NCBI GenBank assembly: GCA_947454235.1 | Contig: CANGIY010000008.1 | Location: forward strand, 1-64,000 | DNA from: Chitinophagaceae bacterium | GTDB lineage: Bacteria; Bacteroidota; Bacteroidia; Chitinophagales; Chitinophagaceae | Direction: 5' to 3' | DNA: 64,000 nt | In this document: piece after piece, positions 269 to 40,953 of the stretch | How positions within the stretch are numbered: position 1 is the first letter of the stretch | Layout: the number at the start of each line of letters is the position of its first letter | Notes under the pieces: model-generated | Told to the model about the DNA's origin: nothing | What the model saw: only the letters and a program-made list of their open reading frames with translations | Databases searched by the model: none | Made by a program: the position numbers and the translations under genes

Positions 269-352
269 CTAGCCGTCTCTTTCCTTTAAATAGTAGAGGA
301 ATGGTATCAGGTTAAGCATCTGCGCAAGCAGCCAGATCTTAAGAATTCTCAT
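269..352 (-). pseudogene. truncated paralogue of the upstream small membrane protein
   Basis: Reading leftwards from ATG at 350-352 gives a 27-residue peptide that begins MRILKIWLLAQMLNLIPF and stops at 269-271. It closely matches the start MRVIKIWFLAQLLNMVPY of the complete gene at 339-767. The ATG lies inside the end of that gene, a 14-base overlap typical of translationally coupled neighbours. It was therefore probably the second of two tandem paralogues and lost everything after the first membrane segment at the IS-remnant junction. It is too short for routine gene calling. Confidence 0.6.
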
Positions 353-767
353 GATTCAAAATTTGAGTTTGAGCAGATTCAATGGTTTCTGAAGATTTGG
401 GTACATAGGCCCGGTAGTAACAAATGGTTGCAACAAATGTTGCTGAAGCTGGAATGGCCATTATTGGCCATTCACGTAACGGAGCACCATCCAATACTGT
501 TAATGTGTAAGCCGCTACCAGCGCTGTAATAGCAGGGAGCAAAAGAACAGAAGTGTAAAAAATGGTTGTCGTCTTTAGTTGCAGATTAACCAGCACCCAA
601 TTGGCAATTACAAACGCCAACAACGCCAATAAGCCACCCAAAAAAGAAATCATGCCAATTGCCCCCAGCACTATCCAACTTTCACCAGCCTCCATATTGA
701 TGATCAGAAACTGATAGGGAACCATATTCAGTAGCTGAGCCAGAAACCAGATTTTAATAACCCTCAT
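339..767 (-). CDS. small multi-pass membrane protein, unknown function
   Basis: The protein has 142 residues. An in-frame ATG lies further upstream at 806, but the start at 767 (MRVIKIWFL) is preferred because the truncated paralogue at 352 begins at exactly the equivalent residue. Hydrophobic segments lie at about residues 3-22, 32-58, 65-85 and 97-117, suggesting four membrane helices and a short polar tail rich in E, S and Q. I recognise no family. The next gene downstream overlaps its end and is a broken copy of the same family. Confidence 0.6.
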   Translation of the reverse strand: MRVIKIWFLAQLLNMVPYQFLIINMEAGESWIVLGAIGMISFLGGLLALLAFVIANWVLVNLQLKTTTIFYTSVLLLPAITALVAAYTLTVLDGAPLREWPIMAIPASATFVATICYYRAYVPKSSETIESAQTQILNHENS

Positions 768-922
768 AAAAGTACTTTGTATTACAAAGTTACAAACAAT
801 TTGCAAAAATTTTGATCATTTTTTCTAAGTGGCTTTTGATAGTAATAATCTTTCATATAGTAAATACATTGACGGTATAAAAAAAAGGAAAAATTTGTAC
901 CTTCGACAGTCTAATAAATGAA

Positions 923-2350
923 ATGCAAATTTCGCCTTCGAAATCCCTGAGATTTAGTATAATAGTGTCCATTATTGCTTGGTGTATAACCACCTTACTA
1001 TCCTGGAGCTCCCAAAATATATATCCACTACATAAGGCCATTGTTGATTGCGATACTGCTCGCTTAAACCAACTAATAAATAAAGGGGCCGATGTAAATG
1101 AATTAAATAACCATGGCCTAACACCTCTTCAATCGTCATTTGCGCTCCATTTTTCTTTGAGGCGAGAAATTTTAACCAAGTTAATTGCTTCGGGAGCCGA
1201 GGTGAACAAATATTCGAAAAATGGCTGGACATCATTACATTTTGCCGCTCAATTGAGGGATACCATGGCGCTGAGAATATTGCTGCTTAATGGTGCAGAT
1301 ACTAGTCTTAAAAATCCAAATGGAAAAAATGCACACCAGATAGCTTTAGAGGTTATTAATGTTTGGAGAAATATTGACCAAAAGCACGACACAAGGAATA
1401 TTGCCACTCTGGACGCCTTTTCAAAATTCAAATCTTCGCCCTACCCACAAAAACATATCAATAGGAATGGCGGCGCATTATATAACAATAAATATCACTA
1501 TATATTTTCCAAATTAAAAATTCAGCAAAAGGAATTGGATGCAACTTCAAATGCCCTTTGGATATTGGTTGTACTACTACTTTGGTTTATGCTCAAAGCT
1601 GTTTTAAAGAACGAGAATAGCCGAGGCATTAAAATACTGTTCAACAATTTGAGCTTAGTGGTTTGGGGATACGCATTATGGTTTGGAATATTGCAGCCCT
1701 TTTTTGTTGCTTCAGCATATATCCCATCACTTTCCATGTACCCGACACTTACCATAAACGACAATATTCTGGCTAATAAGCGGTATAGAAAAATAAAAAG
1801 AGGCTGTATTGTTATTTTTAATCCGGAACCAGAGCAAGAACTAAATAGGAATGTGTATGTTATTAAGCGAGTTTTGGGTATGCCAGGAGACACTGTGGAG
1901 GTACACAGAGCCAAATTACTGATTGACGGCATAGAACAAACAAATAGTAGCAGAAATGGAATTGCACTCCATTGCTGGCTGCGAAGACAACTTGGGTTTC
2001 CAGAAGGTGAACCAATGCGAATAAATAACGATGGAAAATTATTTATTTCAGAGAAAGAGATACCATTGAGCCAATTGGCTGAAGCGATTCAAATTCCGGA
2101 ATACAAAATTAAACTAATCTCCGGCTCTTTACTAATCAACAGGAAAATACAAAATGAATACTATATTTTCGAAGACATGGACTATGATTTGCCTACTCAC
2201 GTGGTTCCGGAAAATAAAGTATTTTTAATGGGTGATAATCGTAATCGTTCAATTGACAGCCATATTTGGGGGGATATTAATATTGAGCAATTAGAAGGAA
2301 CGGTATTTTGCAGATATCTACCATTAAGTAGAATGATATGGTTTGACTGA
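923..2350 (+). CDS. ankyrin-repeat / signal peptidase I fusion protein
   Basis: The protein has 475 residues. A membrane segment at ~10-28 is followed by about three ankyrin repeats at ~33-135, recognisable by PLHKAI, L..KGADVN, GLTPLQ, ASGAEVN and GWTSLHFAA. A linker and two membrane segments (~212-229 and ~241-262) lead into a signal peptidase I (family S26) domain. Box B is PSLSMYPTL with the predicted nucleophile Ser271. Box D is IKRVLGMPGD with the general base Lys315. Box E is MGDNRNRSIDSHIWGD at ~436-451. All catalytic motifs look intact, so an active leader peptidase is expected, with its active site outside the inner membrane. A normal signal peptidase I has no ankyrin part. The gene stands alone and converges on a cluster of three small membrane-targeted peptides. 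Function and substrate are not known. Confidence 0.88.
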   Translation: MQISPSKSLRFSIIVSIIAWCITTLLSWSSQNIYPLHKAIVDCDTARLNQLINKGADVNELNNHGLTPLQSSFALHFSLRREILTKLIASGAEVNKYSKNGWTSLHFAAQLRDTMALRILLLNGADTSLKNPNGKNAHQIALEVINVWRNIDQKHDTRNIATLDAFSKFKSSPYPQKHINRNGGALYNNKYHYIFSKLKIQQKELDATSNALWILVVLLLWFMLKAVLKNENSRGIKILFNNLSLVVWGYALWFGILQPFFVASAYIPSLSMYPTLTINDNILANKRYRKIKRGCIVIFNPEPEQELNRNVYVIKRVLGMPGDTVEVHRAKLLIDGIEQTNSSRNGIALHCWLRRQLGFPEGEPMRINNDGKLFISEKEIPLSQLAEAIQIPEYKIKLISGSLLINRKIQNEYYIFEDMDYDLPTHVVPENKVFLMGDNRNRSIDSHIWGDINIEQLEGTVFCRYLPLSRMIWFD

Positions 2351-2356
2351 AGAACA

Positions 2357-2388
2357 TTAAAGGAAGCGTTTAGCAACCCGCTCCTTAA
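2357..2388. terminator. imperfect hairpin between convergent genes
   Basis: TTAAAGGAAGCG and CGCTCCTTAA form an imperfect stem around a short loop, between the end of the signal-peptidase fusion and the end of the last small peptide gene. The position suits a bidirectional terminator, but the stem is imperfect and no long T-run follows. Confidence 0.35.
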
Positions 2389-2522
2389 CAGGTTACTGTA
2401 TTTTCATCACCACCACTCGGCTCAGCCATGGCTGCTTTTTGTTGCTGTATTTTGTAATATACTCCTCCGCTCACTACCGGAGTTGCGACTACCAGCAATA
2501 GTATGATCGTTAATTTTTTCAT
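2385..2522 (-). CDS. small membrane-targeted peptide, copy 3 of the array (diverged tail)
   Basis: This 45-aa ORF has an MKKL start, a hydrophobic stretch at residues ~4-22, then VYYKIQQQKAAMAEPSGG and a short tail ending in a single Cys. It is the last of three tandem paralogues in the direction of transcription, 27 bases after the stop of the middle copy. The first 38 residues match the other two closely, but the CGGGRDC tail has been replaced by DENTVTC. The conserved reading frame amid base changes suggests real coding. The family is not recognised; it resembles in size and layout the short secreted peptides of Bacteroidota. Confidence 0.6.
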   Translation of the reverse strand: MKKLTIILLLVVATPVVSGGVYYKIQQQKAAMAEPSGGDENTVTC

Positions 2523-2549
2523 CGTTATATGTATTTTGTTGAAACTAAA

Positions 2550-2696
2550 CTAACAGTCACGGCCGCCGCCGCATTTTATGTTGTCACTACCCGGCTCAGC
2601 CATGGCTGCTTTTTGTTGGTGTACTTTGTAATATACACCTCCGCTCACTACCAGAGTTGCAGCTACCAGCAATAATATGATCGTTGATTTTTTCAT
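2550..2696 (-). CDS. small membrane-targeted peptide, copy 2 of the array (CGGGRDC tail)
   Basis: This 48-aa ORF begins MKKSTIILLL, has one hydrophobic segment to about residue 22, the shared KVHQQKAAMAEPG segment, and a C-terminal motif CGGGRDC with two cysteines. The upstream copy ends 27 bases before its start and the downstream copy begins 27 bases after its stop, with nearly identical spacers, so the three are probably one transcript. Function unknown. The hydrophobic start could be a signal peptide (possible cleavage before MAEP) or a membrane anchor. Confidence 0.65.
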   Translation of the reverse strand: MKKSTIILLLVAATLVVSGGVYYKVHQQKAAMAEPGSDNIKCGGGRDC

Positions 2697-2723
2697 CGTT
2701 ATATGTATTTTGTTGAAACTAAA

Positions 2724-2873
2724 CTAACAGTCACGGCCGCCGCCGCATTTTATGTCGTTACCACCACTCGGCTCAGCCATGGCTGCTTTTTGTTGGTGTA
2801 CTTTGTAATATACACCTCCGCTCACTACCAGAGTTGCGGCTACTAGCAATAATATGATCGTTGATTTTTTCAT
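2724..2873 (-). CDS. small membrane-targeted peptide, copy 1 of the array (CGGGRDC tail)
   Basis: This 49-aa ORF is the first of three tandem paralogues in transcription order. It differs from the middle copy only near the end (PSGGNDIK against PGSDNIK) and shares the CGGGRDC tail. The roughly 174-base unit (gene plus 27-base spacer) has been duplicated twice. The region upstream (2874-2983) is AT-rich and should hold the promoter; an imperfect -7 box, TAATTTCG on this strand, lies at about 2913-2920. I do not know the family. Confidence 0.65.
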   Translation of the reverse strand: MKKSTIILLLVAATLVVSGGVYYKVHQQKAAMAEPSGGNDIKCGGGRDC

Positions 2874-2983
2874 CGTTATGAGTATTTTACAGCTAAGTTA
2901 AAATAGATATCCGAAATTACCAAACTTCTGTATAATAGATTTTCATCCCATAAAGTCTCTCATTTAAAGTCTTGTTTTACTGC

Positions 2984-3826
2984 CTACCTGTTCAAAAACC
3001 TCCCACTGGTAATAACAACACCAACATTAAAATAACATTGGGTTGCATTGCCCTTTAAAACATTTTGTACAATGGGTTGGTTGTACACCTTTGTAGCTAT
3101 TGTATCGGTATATGAATAAGGGATGTATCCAGCCACTACACGGAATGCAAATTCCCCTTTAACATGTTTTATAAAAAAGTCACCATCATTTTTGGCGCGA
3201 TAAATAAGCCACAACTGAGCCGCATACGCACCTCTATTAGGTGTAAGCACAGTAGAGATATAAGACTCCATTGAATTGTTACTGCCCTGTTGCTTGTAAG
3301 TCGATTTGGTATAATACCCGGAATTATCAAGATACCAATTATCAAAACTCACATTGATGTGTGGTTGCAGGATAAACTTTCCAACAGGCCAGTTGTAGTA
3401 CACACCCCAATTAAAACCCGAAAAGAATGGCATGTCCTCGGTGTTACCATCCATGCCATAGGCTTTTTCCCATGGCTGAACGCCATTTACAAAGTAATCA
3501 GGATGCGCCGTGGCAAACTTTTGAAAGTATCTGTTGAAGTCCAGCTGTTTCCAAAAGAAACAAATCCCCACTTCCAGACCTATTTTATCTTTCCATGCGA
3601 GTCCTAACAGTCTACCCTGAGTTTGAATTCCCAAACCAAAACCTGTAAAGCTTCCGTCAGAATAGCCCTTGTTCAACAAAGAGTCTGTGTCAATTTTATC
3701 TATTACTTCATTAACTGTACGAACAGGATGATTTTGTGCTATAAGTTCGTCTAATGAGGGCGGCAAAAGGAAAGCCTGCGACTGACTGTATGTCTTAAAA
3801 ACTGCTTTAAATTTCCCTTTTGGCAT
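2984..3826 (-). CDS. chimeric ORF: IS1182-type transposase start joined to an outer-membrane-like protein
   Basis: The 280-aa ORF has two unrelated parts. Residues 1 to ~53 carry the pattern FKTYSQSQAFLLPPSLDELI..NHPVRTVNEVIDKID, the start of IS1182-family transposases as I know them. From about residue 56 (SFTGFGLGIQTQGRL) the sequence changes to alternating polar/aromatic strands such as GLEVGICFFWKQLDF, GVYYNWPVGKFILQPHINVSF and AFRVVAGYIPYS, typical of an outer-membrane beta-barrel. It lacks a signal peptide, which a barrel needs for export. I infer that a deletion after IS insertion joined the transposase start in frame to the remainder of a barrel gene. It is probably not functional. 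Confidence 0.65.
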   Translation of the reverse strand: MPKGKFKAVFKTYSQSQAFLLPPSLDELIAQNHPVRTVNEVIDKIDTDSLLNKGYSDGSFTGFGLGIQTQGRLLGLAWKDKIGLEVGICFFWKQLDFNRYFQKFATAHPDYFVNGVQPWEKAYGMDGNTEDMPFFSGFNWGVYYNWPVGKFILQPHINVSFDNWYLDNSGYYTKSTYKQQGSNNSMESYISTVLTPNRGAYAAQLWLIYRAKNDGDFFIKHVKGEFAFRVVAGYIPYSYTDTIATKVYNQPIVQNVLKGNATQCYFNVGVVITSGRFLNR

Positions 3827-3959: not shown

Positions 3960-4546
3960 GTGTCCACCTCATCCCCTACCCTTCTCCGCCAGCGATAGAA
4001 GGGTGCATTGATGCCGTGACATCAATGAGGTTGTGTTAGAATAAATAGATTGAGTTTTGGTGTAGCCAAACCTAATGCAGGTTTGGCTCGGGGAATATCC
4101 ATAACTACCACTGGCGCAAGTTTGGGGCGTGAGCTACGCGGGCAAGCCAACTTGTGCCTTGCCAAATAGATGCGGTCTCATGACCCGCATTCGACCATAT
4201 TTTGTTAGATTCAGGATATTCAGAAAACACTGGCGCAAGTTTGGGGCGCGAGCTGCATGGGCAAGCCAACTTGTGCCTTGCCAAATAGATGCGGTCTCAT
4301 GACCCGCATTCGACCATATTTTGTTAGAATCAGAATTACAGAATTTTCAGGATAAGGGGTGCGTGAAATATTGCGTGCGAGATATAGGGCGAATGCCATT
4401 CGCCCCTACATGATGATGGCATTTTTGTTGACCTAGCAATATATTTACCGGTAAGCTGTAGGGGCGAAAGGCTTTCGCCCGGCAACAACATCATTAGGAA
4501 ATAGAATTACGTTGCCGTTATAGAATGCCTGCGCTCTCCCCCCCCA
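3960..4546. other. gene-free, repeat-rich stretch
   Basis: No credible ORF. It begins with a copy (3966-4035) of a dispersed palindromic element that starts CACCTCATCCCC and recurs at 17989, 18340 and 20321. Two direct repeats follow (4110 and 4229), then two small palindromes: GGGCGAATGCCATTCGCCC at about 4388 and GGGGCGAAAGGCTTTCGCCC at about 4462. The second occurs again in nearly the same form at about 15298. Confidence 0.6.
4110..4336. repeat. two direct repeats of ~105 bp, period 119 bp
   Basis: Copies start at 4110 and 4229 (ACTGGCGCAAGTTTGGGGCG) and run to about 4217 and 4336, with only a few differences. Each contains two potential hairpins: GGCAAG...CTTGCC and ATGCGG(TCTCATGA)CCCGCAT. 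No ORF crosses them. They look like a REP/BIME-type non-coding element, not a CRISPR, since there are only two long copies and no short spacers. Confidence 0.7.
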
Positions 4547-7973: not shown

Positions 7974-8064
7974 AGCTTTTAAAACTGTACTGGTCAAAAA
8001 TACGTTTTTTGTATCTGTTTTGTTCAAAAAAAACTTTTGAAATTTGCCCTAATTCTTGAACATT
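7974..8064. promoter_or_regulatory. divergent control region between MocR regulator and EamA exporter
   Basis: This 91-base region separates the two start codons. It contains two similar tracts, CTGGTCAAAAAT (~7991) and TTGTTCAAAAAA (~8022), in the same orientation. MocR proteins typically bind paired direct repeats between divergent genes, so these are candidate operators. The match rests on eye alignment only. Confidence 0.4.
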
Positions 8065-8967
8065 ATGTCAACCAATAAAAAAGCCTATCTGGCGCTGGCG
8101 TATGTTTGCTTCATTTGGGGCACCACATACATGGCTATCAGAATAGGGGTCATGCACTACCCTCCCTTCCTGTTTGCCGGCACCCGTCAGGCAATATCAG
8201 GACTCATTTTGGGAGGCTTTGCCCTGTACATGAACAAGAACGTTGATTTCTCATTGAAGAACCTCAGTGTTCAGGCACTCATAGGCTTTTTGATGCTTAC
8301 CATGAGCAATGGCATGGTCACTTACGGTGAAATAACTGTACCGAGTGGTGCGGCAGCTTTGATTTGTTCCTTGATGCCCATTTTTGCAGTGCTGTTTAAT
8401 TTGGCAGGTCCTAAAAAAGAGAAAGTCAACACCAATATTTTACTTGGATTGGCTTTGGGCACCGTTGGCGTCATTTTAATTTTCAGGCAAAACCTCGCCG
8501 ACCTTTCTAACCCAGGCTACATAACAGGTATGCTTGCCATTCTTTCGGCGAATGCTACATGGGCATTGGGTAGCATCATCAACAGAAAAAACACCAAGGC
8601 GCAAAACCCTATGCTGAATTCAGGTTTGCAGTTGTTCTTCGGTGGAGTGTTTATGCTCATTATTAGTCCTGCCGTAGATGACTATTCGCACCTCGAAGTG
8701 AACAGAGATGGTTTAATAGCCCTTGTGTACCTTATTATATTTGGTTCGGTGCTGGCTTACGGATTATATATGTATTCACTGCAACACCTGCCTGTGTCGG
8801 TTGCAACAATATATGCTTATATCAATCCATTGGTGGCTGTAATACTTGGTTACTTCCTGATGTCAGAGCCGCTGAACTGGTACACTTTCTTCGCATTTAT
8901 TGCCATACTTACAAGCGTTCTGTTAGTGAAGAAAGGCAACAATAAAAAACAAAAATCGAGCACTTAA
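8065..8967 (+). CDS. EamA/DMT-family exporter
   Basis: A 300-aa inner-membrane protein with about ten hydrophobic helices in two EamA halves. The first half begins YVCFIWGTTYMAIRIGV, the hallmark start of this family. The second begins near AILSANATWALGSIINRK and includes VATIYAYINPLVAVILGYF. Members export amino acids or other metabolites. The start is the ATG at 8065; an upstream TTG at 8056 is less likely. It lies divergently from a MocR regulator and 39 bases before ilvE, suggesting an amino-acid-related substrate. The basic C-terminus (KKGNNKKQKSS) is normal. Confidence 0.85.
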   Translation: MSTNKKAYLALAYVCFIWGTTYMAIRIGVMHYPPFLFAGTRQAISGLILGGFALYMNKNVDFSLKNLSVQALIGFLMLTMSNGMVTYGEITVPSGAAALICSLMPIFAVLFNLAGPKKEKVNTNILLGLALGTVGVILIFRQNLADLSNPGYITGMLAILSANATWALGSIINRKNTKAQNPMLNSGLQLFFGGVFMLIISPAVDDYSHLEVNRDGLIALVYLIIFGSVLAYGLYMYSLQHLPVSVATIYAYINPLVAVILGYFLMSEPLNWYTFFAFIAILTSVLLVKKGNNKKQKSST

Positions 8968-9006
8968 AACGCACATATTTCTCAAAACCTTTTAAACAGA
9001 AAAGAT

Positions 9007-10056
9007 ATGAGTTACAACTTCAGCATTACCCGTAAACAAGACATGTCGGTGGCTAACACAACCAATGAGCCATTCGGAAAAGTACCGACCAACCACATGT
9101 TTATCGCCGAGTACCGCAACGGCGAATGGCACAATCCGCGTATTGAGCCAATGCACGATTTAACCTTGAGCCCTTTGGCACTGTGCCTGCATTATGGGCA
9201 GACGGTGTTTGAGGGCATGAAGGCTTTCAAATTCGCCGACGGCAGGGTCAATATTTTCAGGGTGGAAAAACACCATGACCGTTTTTGCAAATCGCTGGAT
9301 AGAATGTGTATGCCACCGGTATCCTATGAATTATTCAGAGATTCGATACGCGAGCTGGTGAATCTTGACCGCGATTGGGTTCCTGCCGATGGCGACGGCT
9401 CGCTGTACCTGCGACCTTTTATGATAGCGACCGAAGCTCGTATTGGTGCTTCAAAAGCTGAAGAGTATTTATACATGGTATTGGCTTCGCCTGCCTACCA
9501 ATACTATTCTGCACCGTTAAAAATTAAAGTTGAGCGCAATTTTACAAGGGCTGCCGATGGCGGAACAGGTGCTGCAAAATGTGGTGGTAACTATGGTGGT
9601 GCATTCTACCCTACTCAAAAAGCACGTGAAGAAGGCTTTGACCAAGTGTTGTGGACCGACAACAAACACCACGAAACCATTGAGGAATCGGGCACAATGA
9701 ATGCCATGTTCTATTTCAATAACACTCTCGTAACTCCAGCACTTTCAGGGTCAATATTAGATGGCGTAACGCGCGACTCAATGCTCACAATAGCACGTGA
9801 AACAGGCATCCATGTCGAAGAAAGAAGTATTTCGATTACCGAATTAAAAGCACTTTTTGATAGCGGCACTCAGGTTGAGGCGTTTGGAGCTGGCACTGCT
9901 GCAGTTGTAGCGCCCATCAAATCTATTACCATCGACGGTAAAGAATACGCTTGCTATCTGGGTGAAGATGCTGTGATGTTCAAACTCAAAAGTGCATTGT
10001 TCAACATTAGAAAAGGATTGGCACCAGACACACACGGCTGGAACCTCGTTATTTAA
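9007..10056 (+). CDS. ilvE: branched-chain amino acid aminotransferase
   Basis: A 349-aa fold-type IV PLP enzyme that interconverts Leu, Ile and Val with their 2-keto acids using glutamate/2-oxoglutarate. Key segments are LHYGQTVFEGMKAF, LYLRPFMIA, the PLP-lysine region AAKCGGNYGGAF, and IEESGTMNAMFYF followed by SILDGVTRDSML. The length and the GTMNAMF form fit the eukaryote-like BCAT group common in Bacteroidota. It runs with the EamA exporter upstream and a GNAT gene 4 bases downstream. Confidence 0.93.
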   Translation: MSYNFSITRKQDMSVANTTNEPFGKVPTNHMFIAEYRNGEWHNPRIEPMHDLTLSPLALCLHYGQTVFEGMKAFKFADGRVNIFRVEKHHDRFCKSLDRMCMPPVSYELFRDSIRELVNLDRDWVPADGDGSLYLRPFMIATEARIGASKAEEYLYMVLASPAYQYYSAPLKIKVERNFTRAADGGTGAAKCGGNYGGAFYPTQKAREEGFDQVLWTDNKHHETIEESGTMNAMFYFNNTLVTPALSGSILDGVTRDSMLTIARETGIHVEERSISITELKALFDSGTQVEAFGAGTAAVVAPIKSITIDGKEYACYLGEDAVMFKLKSALFNIRKGLAPDTHGWNLVI

Positions 10057-10060
10057 TTTT

Positions 10061-10522
10061 ATGGAACCTATCAACACGCAATTCGGGGATTACTTAATTA
10101 CCACCGACAAATCGAAGATGAACACCGATGATGTTTTTTATTGGCTGTCAACTATTTCTTATTGGTCTAAATTCATGCCTCGGGTAACATTCGACATAGC
10201 CTTTGAAAACTCATTTTGTATTGGTGCAATGCTGGGTGAACGGCAAGTGGGCTTTGCGCGACTAATTACAGATTATGCAACTTACGCTTACCTCGCAGAT
10301 GTTTTTGTGTATGAAGAATACAGGGGGCAAGGCATTAGTAAAATAATGATGGAAGTTTTGTTTGAAATAGACTGGGTGAAACAGTTGCGCAGAATGATGC
10401 TGGCTACTAAAGATGCACATGATTTGTACCGAAAAGTAGGGTTCAAAAACTCTAACTTCCCCGAACGAATCATGGAAATTGCACGCCCAAACATTTACGG
10501 TGACATGGAGACAAGATGCTAG
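10061..10522 (+). CDS. GNAT-family N-acetyltransferase
   Basis: The 153-aa protein shows the acetyl-CoA binding signature VYEEYRGQGISKIMMEVL (motif A) after YLADVFV, and a late DAHDLYRKVGFK segment (motif B). The start at 10061 is chosen because it lies 4 bases after the ilvE stop; the reading frame is open further upstream but would overlap ilvE. It is likely co-transcribed with ilvE. The substrate cannot be told from the sequence. Confidence 0.85.
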   Translation: MEPINTQFGDYLITTDKSKMNTDDVFYWLSTISYWSKFMPRVTFDIAFENSFCIGAMLGERQVGFARLITDYATYAYLADVFVYEEYRGQGISKIMMEVLFEIDWVKQLRRMMLATKDAHDLYRKVGFKNSNFPERIMEIARPNIYGDMETRC

Positions 10523-10606
10523 GCAAATTTTTCACTTAATGTTTATTTTCATTTAAAAATAAATAAAAACGAGATTAATTTTATCGGCAAACAAATCAAT
10601 CATTAA

Positions 10607-11353
10607 ATGAAATTAAAGTCAATTTGCGCAAGTATGCTTTGCGCAGCGACCATGTTCGCCGGAGCAGCACAAGCTCAATCAAAGAAAGATTCAGAAAACT
10701 GGCACCTTTACAAGAAGGCGGTCATCAATTCTGCCTACACCGATTCCAGCAAAATTTGTAACGAGCTGATACCGATTACATGTTGTAATAAATCGCTCAT
10801 TGATACTATGATTAATGGCGAAAGATACATTTTGACCGTATCATGGAAACATTCAAATTACTATTGCCCGAAAAACCTCGATACTGCACAGGTATTGAAC
10901 ACAGGTCCTTACGACTTATGGATAACAGTTGCGCCGGAACTAAAAAACAAAGTAAAAGGAACAGCAAAAAAAGACATCGATTTACGTCTTGAACAAATGT
11001 TGGGTTTACCACCCGATTCAGGTTATTATGTAAGTTTCTTCGAATTCTGGGTGCGCCCGGAAGATATGTACCGCCCTTGTCCTGACAACGAAATTTCTGA
11101 TAAATCGTGCAAATTGGCGTTTCCTGCAAACGTGAGCCCTGAATATGTTACATGGATGAATGCACAACGCATCAGCCGCTTCTTTGGAGGGGACCCTAAA
11201 GCGCGTTATCCGTGGACAGAACTTGGTTACACATACGACTGGAACCCGAGCAACGAAAAACACTTTGGTTGCAGTGAGTTCGTAATTAAACAAAACTCAA
11301 CCATTTACCAACGCCATTTCTACTCAACATTAGAGTACATATACGGCAAATAA
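10607..11353 (+). CDS. secreted protein of unknown function
   Basis: 248 residues starting with a clear signal peptide (MKLKSICASMLCAATMFAGA then AQAQ, cleavage near residue 24). The mature part is rich in aromatic residues and has about eight cysteines (such as ITCCNKS, YYCPKN, RPCPDN, DKSCK, FGCSEF), suggesting disulfides and a periplasmic or surface location. I recognise no family. It stands alone between the ilvE unit and the DinB pair; the 84-base upstream gap contains TAATTTTA, a weak -7 box. Confidence 0.65.
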   Translation: MKLKSICASMLCAATMFAGAAQAQSKKDSENWHLYKKAVINSAYTDSSKICNELIPITCCNKSLIDTMINGERYILTVSWKHSNYYCPKNLDTAQVLNTGPYDLWITVAPELKNKVKGTAKKDIDLRLEQMLGLPPDSGYYVSFFEFWVRPEDMYRPCPDNEISDKSCKLAFPANVSPEYVTWMNAQRISRFFGGDPKARYPWTELGYTYDWNPSNEKHFGCSEFVIKQNSTIYQRHFYSTLEYIYGK

Positions 11354-11399
11354 AATTGCTGTAAACCCTATCAAAATTACCTTTAAAAAATCATTAGCT

Positions 11400-11969
11400 A
11401 TGTTAGAAGCAAACTACCTGGAGAGCGTCATAAAGCAATTTGAATATTATAAATTGCTGGCAGAAAAAACCTTTGACCAACTACCCGAGGAAAAACTGTT
11501 CTTTCAGTTCAATGATGATTCAAACAGTATTGCGACCATTGTAAAACATGTAGCGGGCAATATGATTAGCCGATGGACAGACTTCCTGACGACTGACGGA
11601 GAAAAGGAATGGCGCAACAGGGAAAGTGAATTTAAAAATGACATACAAGATAAAGCCGCAATGCTGCAATTGTGGCACCAGGGTTGGGAAGTGTTTTTGA
11701 ACACCTTAAAATCGTTACAACCCGAAGACCTCGAAAAAACAATCTATATCCGCAATCAGGGGCATACAGTGATGGAGGCTATTAACAGGCAACTCGCGCA
11801 CTACCCTTACCACATTGGGCAGATTGTGTATGTAGGTAAAATGCTGGCAGGAGCATGGAAGTCGCTGTCGATACCTCGTGGCGGTTCTCAACAGTTCAAT
11901 GCTGAAAAATTCTCGCAGCCGAAACACAACGCACACTTCACTGATGAGTTTTTAAAAGACAAAAAATAA
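11400..11969 (+). CDS. DinB-fold protein, DUF1572 type
   Basis: A 189-aa four-helix-bundle protein of the DinB/DUF1572 group. The putative metal ligands are His in TIVKHVAGNM (~residue 49) and the HYPYHIGQIVYV pair, the H...HxxxH pattern of this superfamily. Related enzymes include metal-dependent thiol transferases, but most members are uncharacterised. A TACCTTTA -7 box at 11378-11385 precedes it. It is one base from the next gene, which encodes a second DinB-fold protein, so the two are an operon. Confidence 0.82.
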   Translation: MLEANYLESVIKQFEYYKLLAEKTFDQLPEEKLFFQFNDDSNSIATIVKHVAGNMISRWTDFLTTDGEKEWRNRESEFKNDIQDKAAMLQLWHQGWEVFLNTLKSLQPEDLEKTIYIRNQGHTVMEAINRQLAHYPYHIGQIVYVGKMLAGAWKSLSIPRGGSQQFNAEKFSQPKHNAHFTDEFLKDKK

Positions 11970-11970
11970 T

Positions 11971-12501
11971 ATGGACACCCAACAATTGCTCGAACGCTTT
12001 AGCGGCAATCACGCACAATTTTCAGCGCACATTCAGTCTTTGACGGAAGCGCAATTCAACTACTCCCTCAAAGGCAAATGGACTGCCGGACAACAATTGA
12101 AGCATGTGTACCTGACGCTGACCCCAATAACAGCTGCATTGCAATCAAAAGAGTATATCGCATCAAAATTTGGATTGATAGACCGCCCGGTAATGACCTA
12201 TGAAGAGGTAGTGCAACATTACACGTCAGGACTGGCAAATGGCGGCAAATCGCCGGAACGTTTTTTGCCTGAACCAGTACATTATTCAGAAGCTCCGGCA
12301 CTTCACGCCGAACTGCAAAAAACAGTCAACACCATAAGTACCCAGCTACAGGGCTACACCAACGAAGAATTAGACACACTGGTGCTACCCCATCCGTTCC
12401 TAGGCAAGCTCACCATCCGCGAACTCATGTACGTCATGACCGACCATGCATTACTGCACTTGGGGCAAGTTAAAAGGCATGTTGAGGAGATGGGTGTGTA
12501 A
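11971..12501 (+). CDS. DinB-family protein
   Basis: A 176-aa protein beginning MDTQQLLERFSG with a DinB-like bundle. The likely metal-binding histidines are in QQLKHVYLTL (~residue 46) and DHALLHLGQVKRH near the end. It follows the DUF1572 protein by one base, and both carry the three-histidine pattern. Possible roles are thiol transfer or hydrolysis; none is proven. Confidence 0.78.
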   Translation: MDTQQLLERFSGNHAQFSAHIQSLTEAQFNYSLKGKWTAGQQLKHVYLTLTPITAALQSKEYIASKFGLIDRPVMTYEEVVQHYTSGLANGGKSPERFLPEPVHYSEAPALHAELQKTVNTISTQLQGYTNEELDTLVLPHPFLGKLTIRELMYVMTDHALLHLGQVKRHVEEMGV

Positions 12502-37490: not shown

Positions 37491-37613
37491 GGCGCAAAAA
37501 TAAGTAAATAAAAACTTCAACTCAGCGTTAAAAGTTCCCACATCTGCATCTAAAAAATATAAAATCTTTCTTATTTTTTACTCACACAATTACAAAATGC
37601 GGGAGCTATGTCT

Positions 37614-37621
37614 TATATTTG
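37614..37621 (+). promoter_or_regulatory. -7 promoter box of the type B T9SS protein
   Basis: TATATTTG fits TAnnTTTG and lies 20 bases before the ATG at 37642. It falls inside the longer open frame, which supports the shorter start. Confidence 0.5.
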
Positions 37622-37641
37622 AAGCTACAAACAAGCTATTT

Positions 37642-40600
37642 ATGAGGAAAATTATAGGCATTTTAATTTGTCTTGTTTTACCTTTTGGAATAAAGGCGCA
37701 GTGTTTAACCGATTCTATTGTCATCAACACCGCATATAACCCGGTGACTAACACTGCGTTGACTGCCGGCACCACAAGTTCTCCTGTTCAAGATCCACAC
37801 TGGATTATTGGTTCCGCCACCTCAAGTATTTCAGGAGCAGGGGGTGTTGGCACTCCGGCATTCGTAATTGCCGGTGTTGGTGCCTGGGCTACAAATCCTG
37901 CTTCTAATCCGGGTCGTTATATTTCTTGTGTCAATTCAACTTCAGTACCTTCTGACGGACGTGGCACAGCATATAACACCACATTGACCCGCCCTTTCAG
38001 AATGTGTATTGATGACACAGTTAAGTTCGATTTACACATTTCGGCAGACAACTACGTTTCCAGAATTGATGTAGATGGTATCATCGTCTTTGGATTTTCT
38101 GAAACCGGAGCGATGACTTCTTATTTCACTTCATTTACCGCTTACGATACCACTATTTACCTCTCAGCGGGAACGCACTACATGAACATTCTCTTGAATA
38201 ATTATAATGATGTTACTGCACTCGCCACCAACCCCATGGGGCTTGATGTATGGGGTAGCATTGTTTCAATGACAGGTATTAGTTCAATTGTAAAGGAAAG
38301 TGACACTGCATGTGCGCGTTACGCATGTCGGTTAACTGCCGACACAACGTGTAATACTGTTGTACTTGCCGATTCAGTGCATTTATGCGATTCAGCTACA
38401 GTTGCTTTGTCGGCATCAATTGTGGGTACCGATTCAGTTATATCTGTGCGTTGGTATCCTCCGGCAAATTTCACTGACACTACTATCCTAAATCCTTTAT
38501 TGCATACTGGTTACACTTCTCAATACTATTATATCAATGTAAAATCGTTGAAAAGCTTTAATGCAGTAGTGAATGGCGATTTCGAAATGGGTAATTATGG
38601 TTTTTCCAGTACTTACACCTACTCTCGCCCACCATCGTCAATATTATATGAGGGCTATTATTCAGTTTATTCCAATCCTTACGGAGTCCATACGGGTTTC
38701 ACATCTATGGGTGACCACACAACGGGTTCCGGGAAAATGCTGATTGTTAATGCGGGTTCTACTGCTTCTGATGTGTGGTGCCAGACGATTTCAGTGGTTC
38801 CTAACACCGACTATGATTTTTCGGCATGGATAGCCAATTGTTCTTCTGTAACTACCGGAACACTGGTTCCTATCATCAATTTCAAAATTAATAGTGTGTT
38901 GATTGGCACGCCAGATACTGTGCGTGCAACGCCGGGCACATGGGTGAACTTCCATACTATGTGGAATAGCGGCATTAGCACTTCCGCCAATATTTGTTTG
39001 TACGATGCTTTAACTGCATCAGGCGGCAACGATTTCGCGATTGATGATATTTCTTTCAGGCAAGTATGTACTTCGTTAGATAGTATTTATGTTTTGATTG
39101 GCGGAGGAGATACAACCTACTCTGTAAAAGACACCGCTCTTTGTGTTACTTCAGCACCTTTGCGTCTTACGCATGCTACTGCAACCAGGTATTTGTGGAG
39201 TACAGGTGCTACATCGGCTTCTATCAATGTATCCACTTCGGGCACATATTATTGCTATGGTTTTACAGGTTGTGCTGTTTCAATTGACACTTTCAATGTA
39301 ACTTTCATCCCTCAACCGGTAGTGAATCTTGGCGCAGATACTGCTTTTTGTGTTGGCAATACACTTACTCTTTCTACAACCCAACCGGCAGGTTACAATA
39401 TCACGTGGAGTGATGGTACTACAGGAAGCTCAATTGTGGCAAGCACAACGGGCGTTTATTGGTGCAATGTCAATAATGGCTGTAGCGTTACTGACTCAAT
39501 TCATGTGACACTTTCGCCATACCCCGTTGTTGACCTTGGACCTGATACTTCGAATTGTTCGGGCACACCAATTACATTAAGTTCCAGCGGCACTTATACA
39601 TCTCCTACTTATCAATGGAGTGATGGAATAACTGCTGCAACAGATATCGTTCTGTCTTCAGGTATCTATTGGCTTAAGGTTACCGATGTAGGCTGCTCTT
39701 CTTCTGATACTGTAAGAGTTAATATTATTTATGACACAAGTTCGTTATACAATAGAGATACTGCGATTTGCCTTGGGCAGATAGTTCAGGTTGCATCGGG
39801 TAATAACCCTAATGCGCGTTATCAATGGATTCCTACTGCCGGCATTGCCATTTCTAACATACATAACCCAACCATTGCGCCTGACACATCAGCAATGTAC
39901 TATATGTACAGTTACGTTTCAGGGTGTCCTCCGCGGGTCGATTCTTTCTATATTGATGTACAACCAAACCCTACTGTCTCAGTAGGTAATTTCCGATTTG
40001 TATGTCAGTACGATACCATCCATTTACGTGCTGATGTGTATCCATTGGGATACACGCACTATTCATATCACTGGACTCCATCCACATTTCTGAGTGATAC
40101 AACGCTGCAAAACATCTTTTTCACAGCAGGTACCGATTCCAAATACATAGTTGAGGTTAAAACTCCTGCTGGTTGTACAGGGAAAGATTCTGTACTGGTG
40201 CATGTATATCCGGGTGACTTCCTGACACAGCCAACCGATGTATATTTGTGTCCACATGACTCTGCACAAATTGTAATTCCTTCATCTAATGGCGGATATG
40301 CAAAATGGCAGCCTAGCTACTACTTAAGTGACTCTACTTCTTTGAGCCCTTGGGTGCACCCAATTAACTCACAATTCTACACAATTTATGGTACAAGCAG
40401 CGACGGTTGTAAAGATACTACCCATGTAAACGTACACGTTTATGCGGCTGCCTTAGTCAATTTACCTGATACTGTTGTGCTACACTCGGGTGAGTCATAT
40501 CATATTATTCCACAAAGCAACTGTTCATCGTTTACATGGTTCCCTGAGTCTGCTATAGATAACATCCATATTATGGACCCGACGGTACACCCTACTGCCG

Positions 40601-40953
40601 ATACTAGATATTGGGTAACTGGCGTCACTGCCAACGGTTGTGCTGTGACCGATTCAGTGAATGTTATATATGACGGCAGCACAACCATCGGTGTACCTAA
40701 TGCATTTACGCCTGATGGCTCGGGTAACAGGACTTTCAAAATAAACATTCTGGGAGAAGGTAGCCTTAACTACTTCCGTGTTTTCGACCGGTGGGGCAAT
40801 AAGCTTTTCGAAACCCGCGATATCAACGAAGGCTGGGACGGTACTTTCAACGGAAAATCCCAACCGCAGGATGTTTATATCTACGCAATTCAGCTAGTGG
40901 GTTCTGATGGCAAAATTGTCAACAAAACAGGCAACCTCACTCTACTTCACTAG
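37642..40953 (+). CDS. large secreted protein with T9SS type B (gliding-motility-associated) C-terminal domain
   Basis: 1,103 residues. The signal peptide is MRKIIGILICLVLPFGIKAQ. A lectin-like or Ig-like N-terminal half (with ISADNYVSRIDVDG and a jelly-roll-like region at ~310-480) is followed by about five Ig/PKD-like repeats of ~80 residues with L..G..YTLT-type strands, for example LGADTAFCVGNTLTLSTTQP and LGPDTSNCSGTPITLSSSG. The C-terminus (PNAFTPDGSGNRTFKINI, then FRVFDRWGNKLFETRDINEG) is a type B sorting domain. It should be exported across the outer membrane and surface-bound. Ligand unknown. Confidence 0.87.
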   Translation: MRKIIGILICLVLPFGIKAQCLTDSIVINTAYNPVTNTALTAGTTSSPVQDPHWIIGSATSSISGAGGVGTPAFVIAGVGAWATNPASNPGRYISCVNSTSVPSDGRGTAYNTTLTRPFRMCIDDTVKFDLHISADNYVSRIDVDGIIVFGFSETGAMTSYFTSFTAYDTTIYLSAGTHYMNILLNNYNDVTALATNPMGLDVWGSIVSMTGISSIVKESDTACARYACRLTADTTCNTVVLADSVHLCDSATVALSASIVGTDSVISVRWYPPANFTDTTILNPLLHTGYTSQYYYINVKSLKSFNAVVNGDFEMGNYGFSSTYTYSRPPSSILYEGYYSVYSNPYGVHTGFTSMGDHTTGSGKMLIVNAGSTASDVWCQTISVVPNTDYDFSAWIANCSSVTTGTLVPIINFKINSVLIGTPDTVRATPGTWVNFHTMWNSGISTSANICLYDALTASGGNDFAIDDISFRQVCTSLDSIYVLIGGGDTTYSVKDTALCVTSAPLRLTHATATRYLWSTGATSASINVSTSGTYYCYGFTGCAVSIDTFNVTFIPQPVVNLGADTAFCVGNTLTLSTTQPAGYNITWSDGTTGSSIVASTTGVYWCNVNNGCSVTDSIHVTLSPYPVVDLGPDTSNCSGTPITLSSSGTYTSPTYQWSDGITAATDIVLSSGIYWLKVTDVGCSSSDTVRVNIIYDTSSLYNRDTAICLGQIVQVASGNNPNARYQWIPTAGIAISNIHNPTIAPDTSAMYYMYSYVSGCPPRVDSFYIDVQPNPTVSVGNFRFVCQYDTIHLRADVYPLGYTHYSYHWTPSTFLSDTTLQNIFFTAGTDSKYIVEVKTPAGCTGKDSVLVHVYPGDFLTQPTDVYLCPHDSAQIVIPSSNGGYAKWQPSYYLSDSTSLSPWVHPINSQFYTIYGTSSDGCKDTTHVNVHVYAAALVNLPDTVVLHSGESYHIIPQSNCSSFTWFPESAIDNIHIMDPTVHPTADTRYWVTGVTANGCAVTDSVNVIYDGSTTIGVPNAFTPDGSGNRTFKINILGEGSLNYFRVFDRWGNKLFETRDINEGWDGTFNGKSQPQDVYIYAIQLVGSDGKIVNKTGNLTLLH

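Follow-up and report, generated by a model that had tools for sequence, protein, structure and literature searches.

Signal peptidase I usually acts as a general enzyme; those dedicated signal peptidases known to us besides SipW serve pili or biofilm fibres. Among short exported peptides, the Phr pro-peptides of Bacillus are made as short precursors whose C-terminal tail is the signal, and the NVEALA peptides are laid out as an N-terminal membrane segment, a short Ala-containing motif and a Gly- or Cys-containing tail. To our knowledge, peptide signalling in Bacteroidota is poorly known. SipW of Bacillus subtilis is a dedicated signal peptidase serving biofilm fibres and is encoded with its substrates, TapA and TasA (excerpts of PMC4551309). 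In Bdellovibrio, the ankyrin protein Bd3460 binds and restrains cell-wall enzymes (excerpts of PMC4686830).

By analogy, TapA-SipW-TasA is the closest functional parallel to the locus described here, in which a tandem array of small ORFs adjoins a gene for a signal peptidase I fused to ankyrin repeats. As with SipW, an extra signal peptidase I lies beside genes for proteins that are putatively exported. However, the SipW substrates are fibre proteins of the same operon and the available excerpts mention no ankyrin domain (PMC4551309), whereas the candidate substrates here are tandem peptides of 44-49 aa that belong to a separate unit and are predicted to be cleaved. Bd3460 differs in being a separate inhibitor of endopeptidases, which the excerpts of PMC4686830 do not describe as a signal peptidase fusion. 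The array peptides resemble the NVEALA peptides of Bacteroidales in size class and layout, but have no PF14055 match; they resemble Phr in being putative short precursors with a C-terminal tail, but no Rap-type partner gene was recognised and the host is a member of the Bacteroidota. No description of an ankyrin-signal peptidase fusion beside peptide arrays was found in the open-licence literature. The array and the fusion may extend, in a new form, the known theme of the dedicated signal peptidase.

Organization of the peptide array

The window (the whole stretch of DNA analysed, 64,000 nucleotides) contains the following features:

923..2350, + strand: ankyrin-signal peptidase I fusion, 475 aa (ORF; domain profiles; alignment with solved signal peptidases; hydropathy)
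1022..1357, + strand: ankyrin-repeat region of the fusion, residues about 34-145, between membrane-like segments 1 and 2 (Ank_2, E 4.8e-10; hydropathy)
1670..1942, + strand: first part of the Peptidase_S26 domain, with Ser271 (PSLSMYPT) and Lys315 (YVIKRVLGMPGD) (PF10502, E 7.9e-32; alignment with solved signal peptidases)
2385..2522, - strand: peptide gene copy 3, 45 aa, the more diverged copy (ORF)
2523..2549, - strand: 27-nt spacer between copies 2 and 3
2550..2696, - strand: peptide gene copy 2, 48 aa (ORF)
2697..2723, - strand: 27-nt spacer between copies 1 and 2
2724..2873, - strand: peptide gene copy 1, 49 aa (ORF; alignment with congener copies; hydropathy)
2775..2783, - strand: codons A31-M32-A33 of copy 1, candidate signal-peptidase site ahead of E34-P35 (alignment; coordinates by hand)
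2893..2924, - strand: promoter-like TTTG-N20-TAACTTAG, lying 19 nt ahead of the copy 1 start and deviating from the Bacteroidota consensus by one mismatch

The original prediction described three ORFs of 45-49 aa, running in one direction and spaced by two nearly identical 27-base gaps. This was confirmed, and the two gaps are in fact identical in sequence. The ORFs lie head to tail and form a single direct repeat family (n=3) with a unit spacing of 174 and 177 nt. Each peptide starts with Met-Lys-Lys, continues with one hydrophobic stretch (residues 4-22 by hydropathy, measured in copies 1 and 3) and then carries KAAMAEP. As had also been predicted, KAAMAEP occurs in all three copies and the CGGGRDC end in two of them, the copy that lacks it (copy 3) being the final one along the reading direction. 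The tails that follow AEP are SGGNDIKCGGGRDC in copy 1, GSDNIKCGGGRDC in copy 2 and SGGDENTVTC, with a single Cys, in copy 3. The 35-codon leaders of copies 1 and 2 encode the same protein, with two synonymous codon changes between them; copy 3 differs from both by five amino-acid-changing codons (dN 0.065, dS 0.13). A search of the organism's own assembly (4.17 Mb) for further arrays or copies found none beyond these three; the sole other match (E 0.417) lies within a 1063-codon frame and looks like chance.

A related array in a congener and the evidence for coding

The original prediction had proposed a search for conserved arrays in related genomes, and one was indeed found in a congener (G007), with five intact copies and one truncated copy located at two contig ends. 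Contig C29 starts with the end of one copy, followed by four that are intact and 44 to 48 aa long. At the very start of contig C52, the minus strand carries an intact 48-aa copy with the truncated copy ahead of it. Since both contigs break within the array, they presumably represent the two sides of a single array, whose real copy number may be larger. The truncated copy (L003:181-228, on C52) lies at the array's outer edge in G007 and retains only a AVAEPNGGNDINGK end.

Compared with copy 1 of the window, the G007 copies show 25 to 36% identity. When the eight intact copies of the two species are aligned, Met1, Leu10, Ala13, Lys29, Ala30, Ala31, Ala33, Glu34 and Pro35 are invariant; K-A-A-x-A-E-P is thus constant except at x in 8/8 copies, while the tails vary in frame. 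After AEP, the G007 tails read DGGNDINGK, GDSGN, GDGGN, DDGNN and SGSGDINGK. GGNDI is common to tails of both species; the cysteine end is not. Consequently, the cysteine tail CGGGRDC, originally put forward as the hallmark of the peptides, does not hold as such: one window copy has a single Cys and the five intact G007 copies have none. The conserved core of the family is, as far as the alignment indicates, the membrane segment plus KAAxAEP, followed by a short variable tail.

Across the 39-codon leaders of the five G007 copies, 0, 2 and 10 sites vary at codon positions 1, 2 and 3, respectively (one-sided binomial p=0.0005). This mostly third-position variation argues that the peptide genes are real. 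For the 35-codon leaders of the three window copies, the corresponding counts are 2, 3 and 4 (p=0.35), so that the window copies alone are insufficient to prove coding. A comparison of dN and dS among copies had been suggested as a test; in G007, pairwise dN ranges from 0 to 0.035 and dS from 0.036 to 0.30. Length differences among copies preserve the reading frame. On the G007 counts, the open frame noted at the outset exceeds chance expectation. The congener array, these in-frame length changes and the third-position bias together support a true tandem family of small, putatively membrane-targeted peptides.

The family was described at the outset as unrecognised, and none of the eight intact peptides has a Pfam or NCBIfam match over cut-off. 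NVEALA (PF14055) was rejected: it was listed neither for the three window copies at E<=10 (most matches above 0.1 being removed there by the HMMER filters) nor for the eight copies at E<=1. The organism's own genome has no PF14055 match at E<=1, and the family was detected in 0/99 related genomes, Bacteroides ihuae, one of the controls, being positive. Other candidates were also discarded. Phr (TIGR04429), whose cut-off is 25 bits, scores 13.2-13.6 bits in 3/8 copies (best E 0.073), and lactococcin 972 (TIGR01653) reaches 14.1 bits against 32.1 in 1/8. A PHROGs Rz-like spanin profile matches 3/8 copies (best E 0.0061, PHROGs having no cut-off), which we take as chance due to the hydrophobic start, and an NCBIfam YoaJ match (E 2e-4, 21.2 bits against 54) covers residues 1-17 only.

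The ankyrin-signal peptidase I fusion

The original prediction was silent on the adjacent ankyrin-signal peptidase I fusion, which is linked to the array in both species. In the window, the fusion gene is convergent with the array, 34 nt separating the ORF ends. Its S26 domain scores 111 bits with PF10502 (E 7.9e-32; cut-off 22.9) and 104.2 with TIGR02227 (cut-off 47). Residues 268-275 (PSLSMYPT) and 312-323 (YVIKRVLGMPGD) line up with the Ser and Lys motifs in signal peptidases of solved structure, and Ser271 and Lys315 are kept in the G007 fusion; judged by alignment, the catalytic Ser/Lys motifs are intact. The G007 fusion (479 aa, C29:716-2155) is located downstream of the array on the same strand.

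Because both genomes encode, besides the fusion, a long signal peptidase of 396 or 402 aa, the fusion looks accessory. The two fusions are 39.8% identical (E 1e-110, tblastn), as against 69.9% for the long signal peptidases and 84% for AtpC, suggesting that the fusion is fast-evolving or was acquired. Hydropathy places three membrane-like segments at similar positions in both fusion proteins (8-26, 210-228 and 245-263 in the window), the ankyrin repeats lying between segments 1 and 2 and the catalytic part after segment 3. The structure model of the fusion is poor (mean pLDDT 56.6, two sequences); its predicted long helices (5-32, 207-229 and 234-265) lend weak support to three membrane segments.

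In the G007 genome, a terminator-like hairpin lies between array and fusion (z -3.72, with 0/200 shuffles as good). The hairpins near the array end in the window are unremarkable (z -1.42 and -1.83, equalled by 20 and 9 of 200 shuffles). On these signals, array and fusion are separate transcription units and not a shared operon, being convergent in the window and separated by the hairpin in G007. The promoter-like sequence ahead of copy 1 was found with the Bacteroidota promoter consensus; as there are 54 matches with at most one mismatch in 128 kb of strand, this one is no more than suggestive.

Possible processing of the array peptides

The A-x-A motif is the rule for signal-peptidase cleavage. 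An invariant A-x-A-E-P behind a membrane-like segment, together with an adjoining signal peptidase, suggests a precursor and its enzyme. The reading that we tentatively prefer, giving it a little less than an even chance, is that the array encodes pro-peptides cut by the adjacent, dedicated ankyrin-signal peptidase, with release of variable tails that act outside. The small pro-peptides would sit in the inner membrane, their C-terminus facing out, and the fusion would be an accessory enzyme dedicated to them. With the N-terminus inside, the ankyrin part and the catalytic part of the fusion and the peptide tails would all be periplasmic. The ankyrin domain, outside between membrane segments 1 and 2, would hold the peptides, and the Ser271/Lys315 site would cut after the invariant A-x-A, before Glu-Pro. 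The tails freed in this way would be 16, 15 and 12 residues long in the window and 7 to 11 in G007, and might act extracellularly as signals or small interference peptides. If this were true, it would represent a simple route to many short extracellular peptides in Bacteroidota. A small-ORF array without family match can, in this manner, be paired with a likely processing enzyme through gene neighbourhood.

An export or signalling role of the peptides, as originally suggested, is possible. The more specific idea of a Gram-negative communication or interference system, in which hypervariable pro-peptides with a shared leader would be released by a signal peptidase bearing its own periplasmic ankyrin receptor, seems unlikely to us.

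Two points call for caution. Before and after the hydrophobic segment, the three peptides examined have Lys/Arg counts of 2/2; in the window fusion, segments 1 and 2 have counts of 1/1 and 3/3. Since the counts are equal on both sides, charge leaves the topology undecided and does not favour the proposed one. Moreover, the hydrophobic segment of the array peptides stops at residue 22, whereas the cut is proposed after residue 33, a longer distance than is usual for signal peptidase I, so that the peptide could be an uncut anchor.

The main rival explanation is accordingly that the peptides are uncut, single-span membrane regulators that bind and control the ankyrin-signal peptidase, the AEP tail being a docking motif for the ankyrin repeats. 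The hydrophobic segment of about 19 residues flanked by two Lys/Arg on each side (three copies measured), its long distance from the AxA site and the linkage to the enzyme in two species all fit such a role. It does not by itself explain why there should be multiple copies whose tails vary while the A-x-A-E-P ahead of them is invariant, and we regard it as rather improbable, about one chance in four.

Linkage and distribution

Array and fusion are adjacent in both genomes, in different orientations, and the link is seen in two genomes only. The fusion was found in 2/294 family genomes at E<=1e-15 (the organism's own and G007), and strong peptide matches (E<1e-20) occur in the same two genomes among 394 of the family, own genome included. 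When 59 genomes (own included) were searched with the peptides, eight had a match at E<=1; beyond the own genome, multiple matches occur only in G007 (four, best E 0.003), the other six having one each, at E 0.125 or worse. Among 11 genomes of the genus, none besides these two has a peptide match at E<=1 and no other has a fusion-sized peptidase frame, although in two of them (G002 and G010, 70% and 74% complete) no peptidase of any size was found.

A profile of the eight peptides gave some match at E<=0.1 in 106 of 394 family genomes. The truncated G007 copy has E 5.4e-4 and the best match other than array copies 3.1e-4; the highest-ranked non-array matches sit within frames of more than 200 codons, some weaker ones in short frames. 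Beyond the own genome, a search of 395 genomes of the phylum gave a single weak hit, with E 6.1e-4 and inside a frame of 306 codons. The peptide pattern gave 229 matches in viral contigs, none of which was confirmed, and the profile gave no match in plasmids at E<=1. With a fusion profile, the own genome alone was found among 396 genomes of the order at E<=1e-18, G007 not being among the matched genomes. In a scan of GTDB contigs for the fusion, residues 20-470 were matched in the G007 contig alone among the 80 stretches listed of 155 confirmed, and the match of the other 79 is confined within residues 1-211; the scan requires an exact 7- or 8-residue pattern, so that distant fusions could be missed. 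At nine of the 26 signal-peptidase loci of the genus, hydrophobic ATG ORFs of 28-90 aa formed no tandem set and showed no AEP behind the segment. Short hydrophobic ORFs are present at five of the nine, several of them antisense to longer genes.

The window begins at the contig start, and less than 1 kb is therefore visible upstream of the fusion. The neighbours are a 155-aa membrane protein and an IS-remnant-like ORF, and farther away an EamA transporter and a class IV aminotransferase, along with genes near the array that we take, on reading, to encode ATP synthase. In G007, the array is flanked by what is presumably a UvrD-like helicase gene, and porin, Rieske, imelysin and di-haem peroxidase genes lie beyond the fusion; AtpC is on a different contig from the array. 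When 62 ORFs of at least 100 aa, from 84 kb of the window contig, were compared by tblastn with the two G007 contigs (78.8 kb), three matched: the fusion; the ORF spanning 37597-40953, through two partial hits of E 1e-21 and 2e-7; and the ORF spanning 65484-66812 (E 5.5e-80, 40% over 369 aa), whose match is about 25 kb from the array on C52. Of the three, only the fusion adjoins the array. As the neighbours differ and the fusion alone is shared beside the array, the adjacency has been kept despite changed orientation and context.

These data bear on a second rival, namely that the two loci are adjacent through block inheritance or joint transfer, without functional link, the peptides doing something separate. 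The restriction to two genomes, the separate transcription units and the low identity of the fusion (39.8%, against 69.9% for the long signal peptidase and 84% for AtpC), which may reflect fast evolution or acquisition, would be compatible with it. However, the neighbourhood is nearly unshared, with 3/62 ORFs matched and the fusion alone beside the array, and the adjacency survived a flip in orientation; we hold this explanation to be quite improbable.

Twelve neighbouring ORFs were scanned (window 339-806, 923-2350, 2984-3826 and five ORFs in 8056-12501, and four downstream in G007), three of which have no Pfam match; none of the twelve was recognisable as a bacteriocin immunity gene, ABC exporter or RiPP enzyme, nor could any receptor, regulator or outer-membrane exporter be recognised next to the array. 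Type I toxins and bacteriocin precursors are generally small, with a hydrophobic segment and tandem copies. That the peptides are small hydrophobic toxins of a type I toxin-antitoxin-like system or bacteriocin precursors, kept in tandem, is very improbable: their size, hydrophobic segment and tandem copies fit this general pattern and one copy has the weak, sub-threshold lactococcin 972 match (14.1 bits against 32.1), but no family of Pfam or NCBIfam is matched above its cut-off, the scanned neighbours include no recognised immunity or exporter gene, and the opposite strand within the array has no promoter-like match at <=2 mismatches to the one consensus used.

Other features of the locus and its relatives

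The 155-aa hydrophobic protein (window 339-806, - strand) is encoded upstream of the fusion on the opposite strand. It has no Pfam or NCBIfam match, nor any match on the array-bearing G007 contigs. Adjoining the array, a 280-aa ORF (window 2984-3826, - strand) matches the N-terminus of IS1182 transposases over residues 13-55 (E 7.3e-6; 25.1 bits, where the cut-off is 270) and has no Pfam match; it resembles an IS remnant joined to a second coding stretch, and was not found downstream of atpC in the congener loci compared. Downstream of atpC, two 109-nt direct repeats (window 4109-4336) are 94% identical, with a start-to-start distance of 119 nt.

Short signal-peptidase-like proteins of 223-228 aa are encoded in the organism's own genome and in three congeners (L139:1495-2166, L140:222-905, L148:1459-2145 and L138:1471-2151). 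By eye, SNLPT, ACMPA, SSEPN or ANEPN seems to stand in place of the usual SMxPT motif, and the catalytic Ser may be absent from some of these proteins. At another signal-peptidase locus of the genus (L131), a 76-aa ORF may encode a real membrane protein.
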